A DNA stretch of 48,101 bases from contig NZ_CAXQBR010000064.1 of the NCBI RefSeq assembly GCF_964222135.1, forward strand, positions 1-48,101, read 5' to 3'. Each line of letters opens with the position of its first letter. The first letter of the stretch is position 1. Under the pieces are notes generated by a model. It was given only the letters and a program-made list of their open reading frames with translations, was not told where the DNA came from and did not search any database. A program made the translations under genes and the position numbers. Source of the stretch: Euzebya sp. (GTDB lineage Bacteria; Actinomycetota; Nitriliruptoria; Euzebyales; Euzebyaceae). Below, piece by piece: positions 4,286 to 14,290 of the stretch.

Positions 4286-6184
4286 GTGCTCACGATCGAC
4301 ATCGACACCGGCGGCACCATGACCGACGGGCTGGTCAGTGGGGACGGCCAGGTCAGGTCGTTCAAGGTGGAGACGACGCCCCACGACGTGACGATCGCGT
4401 TCATGGAGCTGCTCGACGGCGTCCGGGAGTCTCTCGGGTACGCCGACCTGCGCAGCCTGCTCGCCGACGTCGACGTCATCCGGTGGTCCTCGACGATCAC
4501 CTCCAACGTCCTGGCCCAGCGGACCGGCCCGAAGATCGGGCTGCTCGTCAGTGCCGGCCACACCGACGACCTCTACGACGCCGACGCGGCCGCAGCCGTG
4601 GTGGGCACCCTCGTGGAGGCCGAGGACATCTCGAGCATCGCACCTGACGCCGACGAGCAGACGGTGCGACGGGCGATCAAGTCGCTGCTCGACCGCGGCA
4701 TCCGGCGGATCAACGTGTCGCTCGAGGACGCCTTCCACGACCCCAGCGCCGAGCAGCGGATCATCGACCTGATCACCGAGGACTACCCCGACCACTTCCT
4801 CGGCTCGATCCCCGCGCTCGCAGGGAGCGAGATCGTCCTGCGCCCCGACGACGCCACGCGCACCGTCGCCTCCCTCATCAACGCCTACGTGCACCCGGCG
4901 CTGGCCACCACCCTCTACCGTGCCGAGGAGACCGTCCGTGACACCCACGGGTGGCGTGGGAACGTGCTCATCGGCCACATCAACGGCGGGGTGGCGCGGA
5001 TCGGCAAGACCAAGGCGTTCGACACGATCGAGTCCGGCCCGATCTTCGGAACCTATGCCTGCGCCGCCGCGGCGCGCGAGGCTGGCGACGGGCGGGTCCT
5101 GGCCATCGACGTCGGCGGCACCACGGCGAAGGTATCCGCCGTCGAGGACGGTCAGCCGGTGCTGCTACCCCGCGGGGACCTGTTCGACATCCCCGTCGAG
5201 CTCGACATGCCGCTGCTGCGCTCGGTCGCCCTCGGCGGCGGCTCGATCGCCGCCGTGCGCGACGGCCAGGTCGTCCTCGGACCCGAGAGCATGGGCGCCG
5301 CGCCCGGGCCGGCCTGCTACGGGCTGGGAGGCCGCAAGGCGACCGTCACCGATGCCCTCCTCGTCGTCGGGTTCCTGTCACCGACGGCCTTCCTCGACGG
5401 TCGGCGCACCCTGGACGTCGAGAAGGCTCGTGAGGCCCTCGCCCGCGACGTCGGCGAGCCGCTCGGCGTCGATGCCGACACCGCTGCCACCCGGGTGGTG
5501 GAGGCCGCGTGGGACGTCGCCGCCACCCTGGCTCGCGAGGCCGCGGAGGAGGCCGGCTGGGACCCTTCGACCTGCACCGTCTACGGTTACGGCGGCAACG
5601 GGCCGCTGTTCGCGACCGCGGTCGCCGAGCGCCTCGGTGCTTCGGCCGCACGGGTGTTCCGCCACGGCAGCGTCTACTCCGCCTTCGGGTCGGCGATCTC
5701 CGACGTCGTCCACGTCTACGAGTGCGCACTGGTCCACGGCGGTGAGCAGCTGGGACGTGTCGCCGACGACCTGGCCGCCCAGGCTCGACGTGACCTCCGG
5801 GGCGAGGGGTTCGACCCGACCCACGCGACGTTCACCTGGGAGCTGCGCAGCGACCGCGATTCGCAGACGTCGACCGGGGAGGGGCCTTCCGGCATCCAGG
5901 ACCGGCTCGACGGCACCCCGGAGCTGGTGCGGCTGACCGCTCGCCACCCCCTCCCGACCCTCGAGCGGTCCCGGCTCGAGCCCGGGTCCGCGACGCCGCG
6001 GGACGCCCGTCCCTCCCCCTACGGGGTCGACGAGCGGATTCCGACCTTCGACGCCGACGGGCTGGTCGGTGCTGCCGTGGAGGGGCCGGCACTGGTCGAC
6101 GGCGGCTCGTTCACCTGGTTGGCGACCCGCGGCTGGCGGGTCGCCACGGACGACCACGGCGACGCGGTCCTCTCCCGCGCCTGA
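4286..6184 (+). CDS. HyuA-type ATPase subunit of a ketone (acetophenone-like) carboxylase, first copy
   Basis: A 632-residue member of the hydantoinase A/5-oxoprolinase/acetone carboxylase family. GTG 4286 is preferred over the longer frame because GGGAGG precedes it and the protein then opens directly with the family phosphate loop, TIDIDTGGTMTDG (residues 3-15). A second ASKHA nucleotide motif, AIDVGGTTAKVS, is near residue 273, and VYGYGGNGPLF near residue 432. In acetone and acetophenone carboxylases these subunits use ATP to phosphorylate the enolised ketone and/or bicarbonate. It is the first gene of a six-gene operon and is shorter than the second HyuA-type protein (729 residues), mainly at the C-terminus. 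Two unequal HyuA chains plus one HyuB chain point to the acetophenone carboxylase type rather than hydantoinase. Substrate is not known. Confidence 0.8.
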   Translation: MLTIDIDTGGTMTDGLVSGDGQVRSFKVETTPHDVTIAFMELLDGVRESLGYADLRSLLADVDVIRWSSTITSNVLAQRTGPKIGLLVSAGHTDDLYDADAAAAVVGTLVEAEDISSIAPDADEQTVRRAIKSLLDRGIRRINVSLEDAFHDPSAEQRIIDLITEDYPDHFLGSIPALAGSEIVLRPDDATRTVASLINAYVHPALATTLYRAEETVRDTHGWRGNVLIGHINGGVARIGKTKAFDTIESGPIFGTYACAAAAREAGDGRVLAIDVGGTTAKVSAVEDGQPVLLPRGDLFDIPVELDMPLLRSVALGGGSIAAVRDGQVVLGPESMGAAPGPACYGLGGRKATVTDALLVVGFLSPTAFLDGRRTLDVEKAREALARDVGEPLGVDADTAATRVVEAAWDVAATLAREAAEEAGWDPSTCTVYGYGGNGPLFATAVAERLGASAARVFRHGSVYSAFGSAISDVVHVYECALVHGGEQLGRVADDLAAQARRDLRGEGFDPTHATFTWELRSDRDSQTSTGEGPSGIQDRLDGTPELVRLTARHPLPTLERSRLEPGSATPRDARPSPYGVDERIPTFDADGLVGAAVEGPALVDGGSFTWLATRGWRVATDDHGDAVLSRA

Positions 6185-6226
6185 CCCCGTGCCCCCACCC
6201 CGACCCCTGTGACGGACGAGGACGAC

Positions 6227-6610
6227 ATGAGCACACGCATCCACATCGCGGAGTACCTCGACGCGGATCTGGACACCGAGCGCTGGCACTGCCACGACTG
6301 CGGCCACGACATCGGCCCGCTCCGCGAGGACTACAAGCGGGGCCTGCTGGTCGGCGAGCGCGACCCCTCCGAGATCCACCCGCCGGGCATCGAGGGCGAC
6401 TACACCTTCGCCCCGCGCGGGGAGTGGATCCGGATCCTCGAGTTCTACTGCCCCGGCTGCGCCCGCCAGATCGAGACCGAGTACCTGCCGCCCGGCCATC
6501 CCCTCACCCACGACACCGCCCTGGACGTCGACGCCATCAAGGCCCGGCTGGCAAGCGACGAGGTCCGCATCGACGACGACATGAAGCTGGAAGAGGTGCG
6601 TCAACCATGA
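6227..6610 (+). CDS. Small zinc-ribbon subunit of the carboxylase (acetone carboxylase gamma/Apc small-subunit type)
   Basis: A 127-residue protein. ATG 6227 has GAGG five bases upstream; an in-frame GTG lies 18 bases earlier. Two CxxC pairs, WHCHDCGHDIG (residues 21-31) and FYCPGCARQIE, about 50 residues apart, form a likely zinc site. The segment with DYKRGLLVGERDP and the tyrosine-rich linker matches my recollection of small subunits in acetone and acetophenone carboxylases. Its role there is metal binding within the carboxylating complex. Its stop overlaps the start of the next gene (ATGA), indicating translational coupling. It sits between the two HyuA-type genes, as in the acetophenone carboxylase operon. 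Confidence 0.78.
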   Translation: MSTRIHIAEYLDADLDTERWHCHDCGHDIGPLREDYKRGLLVGERDPSEIHPPGIEGDYTFAPRGEWIRILEFYCPGCARQIETEYLPPGHPLTHDTALDVDAIKARLASDEVRIDDDMKLEEVRQP

Positions 6611-8796
6611 AGGCCATCGACATCGACGTCGGGGGGACGTTCACCGATCTCGTCCTCAGCTGGGACGACCAGCGCCTGGTCGCGAAGGCGCCGACCACGC
6701 CCTACGACCTGTCGGTTGGGTTCGTCAACGTCCTCACGGCCGGCGCGGAGCAGCTCGGCCTGGCGCTCGACGACCTGCTGCCGCAGGTGGAGATCGTCCG
6801 CTACTCGACGACGGTCGCGATGAACCGGCTGATCGAGCGGAAGGGCCCGAAGCTCGGGCTGATCACCACAGAGGGACACGAGGATGCCATCCTCATCGGT
6901 CGGGGCGCGCAGTGGGTCGACGGCACCAGGATCAACGAGCGGCGCAACCTGGCGGTGCAGCGCAAGCCCGAGCCCCTGGTCGACCGCGACATGATCGTCG
7001 GCGTCGCCGAGCGGGTCGACTCGGCCGGCACGGTCGTCCGCCCTCTGGACGAGCGCGACGTCCGCGACAAGCTGCGACGCCTCGTCGACGCCGGCGCCCG
7101 GGGGATCGCAGTCAGCCTGCTCTGGTCGTTCGCGAACCCCGAGCACGAGCGGATGGTCCGCCGGATCATCCGCGAGGAGTACAAGAGCTACCACGTCGGG
7201 TACCTGCCGGTCGTGCTGTCCCACGAGGTGGTCGGCAAGGCCGGGGAGTACGAGCGGACGATGACCGCGATCCTCGACGCGTACCTGCAGACGTCCATCA
7301 AGTTCGAGCTCGAGACCACCTGGGACCAGCTGCGCAACCACGGCTACACCGGGAGCTTCCTCCTCACCCACAACACCGGCGGGTCCGCGGAGATCTTCAA
7401 GACGACCGCCAGCCGCACCTTCAACGGCGGTCCGGTGGCGGGGCTCATGGGCAGCTACCACATCGGCCAGGCCCTGGGCTACCGCAACGTGATCGCCTCC
7501 GACGTCGGCGGAACCTCCTTCGACGTCGGGATGGTCGTGGACAGCTCGGTACGCAGCTACGAGTTCCGGCCGATCATCGACCGCTGGATGGTCGGCATCT
7601 CGATGCTCCAGACCACGACGATGGGCGCCGGCGGTGGGTCGATCGCCTGGATCAACTCGCTGCTCGGCAACCGCCTCGAGGTCGGCCCGCGGTCAGCCGG
7701 CAGCTACCCCGGTCCGGCGTGCTACGACCTGGGCGGGACCGAGCCGACGGTGACCGACGCCGACGTGGTCCTGGGCTACATCGCGCCGGACAGCTACTTC
7801 GGCGGCAACATGCCCCTCAACCCTGACCTGGCGGCGGAGGCGATCCGGACGAGGATCGCCGAACCCCTCGGCCTCGAGCTCGACGAGGCTGCCGCGTTGA
7901 TCCGCCGGATCGTCGAGGAGAACATGGCCTCGGCGATCAAGCGGGAGGTGCACCTCCGCGGGTACCACCCCGAGGACTTCGCCATCTTCGCCTTCGGCGG
8001 TGGCGGCCCGACGCACGTCGCCGGCTACCGGGCCGAGGTGCCGACCGCGGTGATCTTCCCCCAGGCACCGGTGTTCAGCGCCCTCGGCTCCTCGGTCATG
8101 GACATCATGCACGTGTACGAGCAGAGCGGGCGCCTCCAGTACATGGCGCCGATGACCGGCGAGATCGTGATCGACGCCGACGAGTTCAACACCGTCGTCG
8201 ACGGGCTGATCGAGCGGGCCACCACCGACCTCCAAGCAGAGGGGCTGGATGCCGAGCAGGCCGTCTTCAGCGTCGAGCTAGACATGTTGTACGGCGGGCA
8301 GGTCCAGGTGAAGCGGGTCGCCTCCCCGCTGACGCGGATCACCTCTGCCGATGACGCCCAGCGGATCTACGACTCCTTCGAGAAGGAGTTCTCCGACGCC
8401 TTCAGCCCCCACGTCGTCAACAAGCCCGGCGGCGTGTACCTGGACGCGATCGTGCTGAAGGCGACCATCCCGACCCAGAAGCTCGAGCTCGAGGAGCACG
8501 AGTTGGGCGCCGCCGACCCCTCGGCCGCCCGGACGACCAGCCGGTCGGCGTACTGGCCGGTCCTCGACCAGCGCGTCGACACCGACGTCTACTCCTTCGA
8601 GGCGCTGCGGCCCGGCAACGTGGTGACCGGGCCCGGGATCGTCGAGATGGAGTTCTCCACCATCGTGGTGCCGCCCGGCCAGCAGCTCCGCATCGACCGG
8701 CACGGACTCGGGATCCTCAGCGGCGCCGACGCCGACGCCGACACCGACCCCGCCCAGACCGCAGCCGACCGCGCAGCAAAGGGAGCAGAGCGATGA
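6607..8796 (+). CDS. HyuA-type ATPase subunit of the carboxylase, second copy
   Basis: A 729-residue protein starting within the ATGA overlap with the small subunit. It opens with the phosphate loop AIDIDVGGTFTDLVLSW, has a second motif SDVGGTSFDVGM near residue 298, and FAFGGGGPTHVAGY near residue 460. These are the nucleotide-binding signatures of the hydantoinase A/acetone carboxylase alpha family. It is clearly related to the upstream HyuA-type protein but about 100 residues longer and much better conserved in the TTTMGAGGGS region. Two HyuA subunits allow separate ATP-dependent activation of ketone and bicarbonate, as proposed for acetophenone carboxylase. Its stop overlaps the next start (ATGA). 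Assignment to the complex is strong; substrate is inferred. Confidence 0.83.
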   Translation: MKAIDIDVGGTFTDLVLSWDDQRLVAKAPTTPYDLSVGFVNVLTAGAEQLGLALDDLLPQVEIVRYSTTVAMNRLIERKGPKLGLITTEGHEDAILIGRGAQWVDGTRINERRNLAVQRKPEPLVDRDMIVGVAERVDSAGTVVRPLDERDVRDKLRRLVDAGARGIAVSLLWSFANPEHERMVRRIIREEYKSYHVGYLPVVLSHEVVGKAGEYERTMTAILDAYLQTSIKFELETTWDQLRNHGYTGSFLLTHNTGGSAEIFKTTASRTFNGGPVAGLMGSYHIGQALGYRNVIASDVGGTSFDVGMVVDSSVRSYEFRPIIDRWMVGISMLQTTTMGAGGGSIAWINSLLGNRLEVGPRSAGSYPGPACYDLGGTEPTVTDADVVLGYIAPDSYFGGNMPLNPDLAAEAIRTRIAEPLGLELDEAAALIRRIVEENMASAIKREVHLRGYHPEDFAIFAFGGGGPTHVAGYRAEVPTAVIFPQAPVFSALGSSVMDIMHVYEQSGRLQYMAPMTGEIVIDADEFNTVVDGLIERATTDLQAEGLDAEQAVFSVELDMLYGGQVQVKRVASPLTRITSADDAQRIYDSFEKEFSDAFSPHVVNKPGGVYLDAIVLKATIPTQKLELEEHELGAADPSAARTTSRSAYWPVLDQRVDTDVYSFEALRPGNVVTGPGIVEMEFSTIVVPPGQQLRIDRHGLGILSGADADADTDPAQTAADRAAKGAER

Positions 8797-12935: not shown

Positions 12936-13525
12936 CCAGCCGCGCTCCGCCCACCGGCGGGCACGGTGCATCAGAGCTGGCCCTTCGGAGCGCACGCCAG
13001 GACGGACCTCGGCATGCACCATCGCAGTACGTCGACGGGGGCGACGGGTCCGCCCGATCGATCCAGCGGAGGAGCAGCGTGTCGCCGCCGCCGGGCACGT
13101 CAGGAGCACACATCACCGGCGGCGCGGGTGTTGAGTCCCGTCGGGAGCAGCAGGAGACCGTGCTGCACGCGCGACCGCCCCCCGGTCCGCGCACATCGGC
13201 ACCAGGTTCTGGGGGCAGGCCGCACTGACCCCCGTCATCGACCCACGGGCGCATCGCGGGGCGTGTGGTCTGGTGTGGCGTCCCCGCCATCGACCCACGG
13301 GCGCATCGCGGGGCGGGTGGCCGGTGGGGCGTCCCCGCCATCGACCCGTGGGTGCATGGCGGGCCGGTGGCCGGTCTGGCGTCCCCGTCATCGACCCACG
13401 GGTGCCTGACGGCCCGGCCCTCGGCGATCTGGCTTCCTGGTCCGCGAGCCACTCGGGCGAGGTGCAGGTGCGGGCCGGGGGGTGGCCACATCCGACGCCC
13501 CCACGCCTGCGACGAGATCTCGACC
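12936..13525. other. 590-bp intergenic region with no gene
   Basis: No credible coding frame lies between the ligase and the CobT-like gene. The left part (12936-13230) is plain GC-rich sequence with a weak hairpin just after the ligase stop. The right part holds the tandem repeat described separately. A B12-box-like string, AGCAGGAGACC (13149-13159), is present, but the rest of a cobalamin riboswitch is not recognisable. Confidence 0.6.
13231..13412. repeat. Imperfect tandem repeat, unit about 51 bp, three full copies plus a partial one
   Basis: The anchor CATCGACCC begins at 13236, 13288, 13339 and 13389, giving periods of 52, 51 and 50 bases. Each unit runs from CGTCCCCG(C/T)CATCGACCC through a GGGCGCATCGCGGGG-like segment. 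CCCCGC and GCGGGG within a unit can pair, so each copy may form a hairpin. Copies 1 and 2 are the closest; the fourth decays. The tract could be a minisatellite or a terminator-like array behind the ketone operon. Confidence 0.7.
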
Positions 13526-14290
13526 ATGCCCGACGGACCCGCCCGCACCGCGATCGACGACCTCGTGGACCCGGTGCGACCGGCCGATCCTGATGCGACG
13601 GCCTCCGCCACCGAGCGGCTCGCGTCGCTGGCGGTCCCGCCGGGAAGCCTCGGGCGGCTCGGCGACCTGGGCGTCCGACTGGCCGGGATCGCGGGCACGT
13701 CCCCCGTCCGCGCCGGCGCGGACCTGACGGCGGCCCGCATCGACGACGGCGCCGACCTCATCGCCACCGGGGACCTCGGCATCGCGAACACGACGGCCTC
13801 CGCCTGCCTGATCGCGGCCTTCACCGGCCGCCCATCCGCCGACGTCACCGGGCCGGGGGCGGCGAACCCGCCCGACGTGATCGCGCACAAGGCCGAGGTC
13901 GTCCGTCGCGCGCTGGCCCGCCACGGCGCGGACCGCGATCCCCTCGCGACCCTCGCCTCCCGCGGGGGCGCCGAGCACGCCGCCCTGGTCGGTGTGGTCC
14001 TCGCCGCCGCCGCGCGGCGGGTGCCGGTGGTCCTCGACGGGGTGATCGCCGTCGCGGCGGCCCTGGCGACGGTGCGGCTGTGCCCCGCGGCCGCGGACGT
14101 CCTCATCGCCGGCCACCGCTCCGCCGAGCCGGGAGCCACCGCGGCGCTCGAGGACCTGGGGCTCGATCCGCTGATCGACCTCGCCCTGGCGCTGGGGGAG
14201 GGGACGGGGGCGGTCCTCGCCGTGCCCGTGGTGCGGTCTGCGGCGGCGGTCATCGGCGAGATCGCCCTGCTGGTCGACGTCGCCACGTGA
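13526..14290 (+). CDS. Shortened CobT-like nicotinate-nucleotide:dimethylbenzimidazole phosphoribosyltransferase
   Basis: A 254-residue protein from ATG 13526. CobT signatures are clear: VPPGSLGRLGDLGVRLAGI (about residues 34-52), DLIATGDLGIANTTASA, LASRGGAEHAALVGVVLAAA, PVVLDGVI and the catalytic-glutamate segment LALGEGTGAVLA. CobT makes alpha-ribazole phosphate for the lower ligand of cobalamin. Full CobT proteins are about 350 residues. Here the text jumps directly from the PPGSLG helix to the GDLGIGNTT-type motif. The roughly 100 residues that normally carry AADHGV, the VSAYPQEVT base-binding loop and VDVGV are absent without a frameshift. The frame is open further upstream through the repeat region, but homology begins near this ATG. 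It may be a degenerate or altered-substrate paralogue. Confidence 0.72.
   Translation: MPDGPARTAIDDLVDPVRPADPDATASATERLASLAVPPGSLGRLGDLGVRLAGIAGTSPVRAGADLTAARIDDGADLIATGDLGIANTTASACLIAAFTGRPSADVTGPGAANPPDVIAHKAEVVRRALARHGADRDPLATLASRGGAEHAALVGVVLAAAARRVPVVLDGVIAVAAALATVRLCPAAADVLIAGHRSAEPGATAALEDLGLDPLIDLALALGEGTGAVLAVPVVRSAAAVIGEIALLVDVAT

Follow-up and report, generated by a model that had tools for sequence, protein, structure and literature searches.

Whether a cobT gene that lacks the middle of its coding sequence and yet keeps its reading frame can still supply a working enzyme is the question raised by one locus of a Euzebya genome. CobT is the nicotinate-nucleotide:5,6-dimethylbenzimidazole phosphoribosyltransferase. 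Within the window, by which we mean the whole 48,101-nucleotide stretch of DNA that was analysed, a single open frame encodes a protein of 254 residues (Table 1), which is homologous to CobT over its full length bar the first few residues and scores 244.4 bits (E 2.5e-72) against Pfam DBI_PRT (PF02277), well past the gathering score of 22.6. The NCBIfam curated cut-offs, which serve for naming functional CobT, are reached neither for the equivalog model TIGR03160 (231.1 of 319.3 bits) nor for the subfamily model NF000996 (235.9 of 306 bits). The protein keeps the catalytic glutamate segment of CobT and differs from CobT in being 99 residues shorter mid-protein, in falling under both NCBIfam cut-offs and in lying outside a cob cluster. 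In a profile search of the genome, two PF02277 matches adjoin directly, with no stop between them, and the profile positions between 45 and 138 have no counterpart in the protein. The C-terminal part shares 60-62% identity with its closest full-length relatives, which are members of the same class.

Table 1. Position of the internally deleted cobT, its parts and its junction (window numbering), and of the cobU-cobD-like fusion regions compared in the text
Feature	Position	Strand	Basis
Deleted cobT, whole open frame (254 residues; ATG at 13526, stop ends 14290)	13526..14290	+	
Deleted cobT, N-terminal part (residues 1-60, through AGTSP; has PPGSLGRL)	13526..13705	+	PF02277 profile 2-45 at 13577-13708; alignment with full-length relatives
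Deletion junction, 297 nt (99 codons) short compared with 18 of 22 full-length relatives	13705..13706	+	Alignment; junction DNA
Deleted cobT, C-terminal part (residues 61-254 and stop; GDLGIANTT, SAEPG, LGEGTGA)	13706..14290	+	PF02277 profile 138-322 at 13706-14266
cobU-cobD-like fusion region, L072 (G001)	6235-8471		
cobU-cobD-like fusion region, L070 (G000)	5604-7190		

We compared the window protein with full-length CobT proteins taken from relatives, 23 in all, of which the distant one from G004 was set aside. Against 18 of the remaining 22, the block absent from the window protein measures 99 residues; against the other four it measures 100, 103, 107 and 110, because those relatives carry extra residues inside it. 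The 99 residues amount to 297 nt, an exact multiple of three, so that the frame is kept. Within the block, 30 columns reach at least 90% conservation among the 22 relatives (PP.P, DHGVH, V..WPQ..T, G.A, GA...V.D.G and GT.DL), and with the block the DHG(V) strand-loop and the base-side segment of the N-terminal third of CobT are absent. S. enterica CobT aligns by its residues 11-54 to residues 17-60 of the window protein and by 164-337 to 73-245, leaving its residues ~55-151 unmatched. The junction can be placed only to within a few nucleotides, since the residues PV can come from either side. As judged from the alignment, the gap is not due to chance, since strong homology flanks a clean break on either side. 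The initial annotation, which had described a CobT-like protein short of an internal piece without a frameshift, about 100 residues including the AADHGV region being absent and the flanking CobT motifs well kept, is borne out in each of these respects. Structure prediction from a two-sequence alignment gave a low mean pLDDT both for the deleted protein (38.4) and for a full-length control (42.0), and therefore has no bearing on the fold.

What is left of the gene shows no sign of decay. The LGEG segment with the general-base glutamate is present as LGEGTGA, the motif named in the initial annotation, and SAEPG and PPGSLG are kept as well. The ribose/NaMN-side motif G[DE].G..NTT reads GDLGIANTT, with Asp for Glu, a replacement shared by most of the 22 relatives. 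Of the columns invariant among these relatives the window protein differs at one of 34, and of those conserved to at least 90% at two of 76; when each of the 22 intact relatives was left out in turn, the corresponding counts were 0-6 of 34-40 and 2-13 of 76-82. A tree built from the retained columns gives the window protein a branch of 0.45, inside the range of the others, 0.27-0.75 (G004, the root, aside). Its GC3 of 0.941 lies within the range of four measured flanking genes (0.911-0.969: pyrD 0.946, the kinase gene 0.911, the hydantoinase B gene 0.969 and the ligase-like gene 0.918) and therefore reveals no drift. No stop, frameshift, loss of conserved residues or GC3 drift was found in the deleted cobT as a pseudogene sign beside the gap, which counts against reading it as an inactivated gene. 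Since conserved columns, branch length and GC3 are all normal, the gap alone marks the gene as damaged. Such a remainder would point either to a recent event or to continued selection, and one sequence fits both alike.

We consider it probable, from these comparisons, that the locus is a cobT from which 297 nt have been deleted internally and in frame, one that most likely makes no working enzyme now. Inactivation is favoured because the deletion was seen only here among the matches listed and because 30 near-invariant columns are gone. The deletion would have arisen as a single in-frame event inside cobT, possibly guided by short direct repeats: with the codons of relatives as stand-ins, a CCGTCC-like string lies at both ends (like CCC GTC CC on the left and GCC/GTC CGC on the right). 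A random deletion keeps the frame with a chance of one in three, so its being in frame is compatible with inactivation and not predicted by it. One account of CobT (PMC9561151) describes the base pocket of the S. enterica enzyme as built from loops of an eight-stranded sheet, both chains contributing; E317 acts there as the base and E174 sits on the ribose. The archaeal counterpart holds its base with loops Val40-Thr48, Pro68-Pro77 and Gly311-Val313, likewise within an eight-stranded sheet, and the first two of these loops lie in the N-terminal third. The lost block covers the strand and loop around DHGV, and losing part of the core sheet along with two loops on the base side should abolish folding or base binding. 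Since the segment appears to be needed for both the fold and the base pocket, base activation would be lost. The initial annotation had suggested a recent in-frame deletion that killed the gene. Its inactivation is what we favour as well, and, as the remainder still appears to be under constraint, the event may be called recent in evolutionary terms; the word "recent" fits an undecayed remainder and carries no date.

How such a loss could be borne is suggested by the B12 pathway of the genus, compared here in four members: the genome of the window (G000), G001, G002 and G003. CobT is intact in G003, absent from G001 and G002, and internally deleted in G000. CbiZ, CobU and CobS are present in three of the four (G000, G001 and G003) and absent from G002, and in these same three cobU is fused to a cobD-like aminotransferase gene. 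CbiB was found in G000. CbiC occurs in none of the four, and BluB is over the cut-off in none, with sub-cut-off matches only. A B12-binding methionine synthase domain is present in all four; in G000 one TGA is reported inside the match to this domain (C65:56253-56876), and none in the three relatives. No cobalamin riboswitch was matched by Rfam in the window or in six cob loci. By their gene content, the members are corrinoid salvagers and, apparently, remodellers, and the fact that G001 keeps the other steps suggests that CobT is a dispensable one in this genus. Loss of CobT thus seems tolerable, because the genus lives by corrinoid salvage and because G001 keeps CobU, CobS and the rest of the nucleotide-loop set although it has no CobT. 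The lack of CobT activity is perhaps made good by uptake, either of complete cobamides or of alpha-ribazole that is already made. On this genomic evidence, the deletion is most likely fairly recent, CobT expendable and the salvage pathway partly eroded.

The alternative that fares best, and still an unlikely one, is a functional compact CobT, which would bind NaMN, keep the catalytic glutamate and either use another base or take the missing lobe from a partner or from the other dimer subunit. The initial annotation had held out such a variant. In its favour, the conserved residues and GC3 are undecayed, the catalytic LGEG segment is kept, PMC9561151 has the S. enterica pocket built from both chains, and the gene encodes the sole PF02277 protein of a genome in which CobU, CobS, CbiB and CbiZ are all retained. 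Since G001 keeps CobU, CobS and CbiZ without CobT, however, their retention is no proof that the deleted CobT works. Also against it, 30 near-invariant columns would have been lost at once, no cob gene adjoins the deleted one, and the missing segment is encoded neither elsewhere in the assembly (E 0.001) nor in the window (E 0.01), where a search with full-length CobT matched nothing beyond this gene. We give somewhat less credence still to the more specific idea of a 254-residue base activator that dispenses with the DHGV lobe, its pocket being rebuilt from the dimer partner or another protein. Such an enzyme would act in a species that keeps up corrinoid remodelling (CbiZ, CbiB, CobU-CobD and CobS) and contains no further CobT, and a working short protein would bear on how little of CobT catalysis needs.

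The distribution of the deletion also argues against a compact enzyme. The initial annotation had proposed to look for other CobT proteins of about 250 residues, for a second full-length cobT in the same genome and for the deletion in relatives; nothing of the kind came to light. The genome (5.06 Mb, a 111-contig draft, 97.1% complete) gave a single chain of PF02277 matches, the window gene, and no second cobT at E 0.001 in the assembly; a further copy in the unassembled part is possible. Of 66 genomes of the class that were searched, 29 have CobT matches and, among the matches listed, the window alone aligns query residues 1-254 in one piece. A sample of 396 genomes from the phylum gave CobT matches in 201 and, among the matches listed, only the window shows the deletion. 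Four of these listed matches fall in frames shorter than 300 residues. Those of G042 and G330 are situated close to or at the start of a contig, the G036 gene is broken across two contigs, and G019 has two cobT pieces in different frames. Plasmid pMESIL01 of Allomeiothermus silvanus was considered as a second short CobT, tblastn having aligned query residues 28-251 in one piece. Its annotated gene is 1065 nt long and encodes a full-length protein of 354 residues; the single-piece match was misleading because the aligner had bridged the gap. Likewise, the long single matches in G198 (17-251) and G396 (25-251) belong to open frames of 418 and 356 residues. Among viral contigs, the window query found one partial match (39%), at a locus end, and a full-length CobT query found none. 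A wider contig scan, among the matches listed, yielded one full-length relative, from Actinocatenispora comari.

An assembly or sequencing artefact, in which a gene that is really full length lost 297 nt during the assembly of a GC-rich contig, strikes us as improbable. The region is ~77-79% GC in a draft of 111 contigs, and two drafts of the same order, G019 and G024, show a frame-split cobT, cobU being likewise divided in one of the two. A clean in-frame loss free of ambiguous bases would nevertheless be unusual for an assembly error, and the junction has no long flanking repeat and only a possible short one. The damaged genes of G019 and G024 are in two pieces in different frames, unlike the single open frame of the window, and these drafts are less complete (78% and 85%) than the genome of the window. 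The two-frame cobT of G019 (C31:16480-17216, in the 78% complete draft) lacks profile positions 103-134 and has nothing past 281; it is possibly decaying or misassembled.

The genomic setting offers the deleted cobT no partner in the pathway. Its left-hand neighbours are two hydantoinase A genes, one hydantoinase B gene and a gene whose product has an AMP-binding domain at its C-terminus; to its right, a Ser/Thr kinase gene follows, and then pyrD. From the pyrD region rightwards, gene order is common to the same-genus G001 and G002 and partly to G003. The relatives of the kinase gene in G002 and G003 sit elsewhere, with no credible cobT beside them, and the stretch therefore appears to be locally rearranged and not the usual cobT site of the genus. 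Two single tblastn hits near these kinase relatives (E 0.004 and 0.006) were dismissed as weak chance matches. The initial annotation had looked to relatives with a full-length gene at the same locus as the sign of a strain-specific deletion, a comparison that does not apply here, the same-genus genomes examined having no cobT at the locus. In G003 the intact cobT is enclosed by the cobU-cobD fusion gene on one side and a large protease-like gene on the other; the same pair occurs in G000 and G001, where the space between holds neither cobT nor a remnant of it (E 0.01). Vertical descent from the G003 gene was considered and not upheld. In the tree the window protein is joined, at a weak support of 0.13, to members of another family, and transfer and differential loss are therefore both possible. 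Directly upstream of the deleted cobT, a 39-nt unit recurs within 13230-13421 in four imperfect copies spaced 50-52 nt apart, some of which form inverted repeats. That the remnant has taken on a new non-catalytic role, for instance as a nucleotide-binding regulatory protein, is very improbable: its NaMN-side motifs are undecayed and the kinase gene lies 55 nt downstream on the same strand, but this neighbourhood is not conserved, the kinase relatives of G002 and G003 having no adjoining cobT.

Close known systems include, besides CobT itself, ArsA/ArsB (PDB 4hdk), homologues of CobT that act as a pair on phenolic bases and belong to the same fold family as the window protein, whose matches have E values of 1.4e-30 for ArsA and 1.3e-21 for ArsB. 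ArsA and ArsB are proteins of 348-350 residues encoded in tandem, whereas the window gene is short, alone and the single PF02277 gene of its assembly. A phrase search of the open-licence literature found no report of a truncated cobT or a cobT pseudogene. In one comparative study of cobamide genes, tandem cobT genes of less than 300 residues are treated as annotation errors (PMC6461909), and short cobT entries may therefore be screened out of surveys. An annotation pipeline may name this gene cobT, and the organism would then be credited with lower-base activation. As a broken gene, the locus would be a small example of the stepwise erosion of B12 salvage, since a single genus shows CobT intact, missing while the rest stays, missing together with the rest, or internally deleted. 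G001, with CobU, CobS and CbiZ and no CobT, poses an ordinary and testable question of where the activated lower base comes from: the cobU-cobD fusion, a histidine phosphatase gene, cobS and cbiZ are all present there, and a PF02277 gene is absent. Next to cobS in G001 and G003 stands a second, divergent protein that matches CobS weakly, at ~25 bits (L074 6308-7039 and L075 5174-5959).
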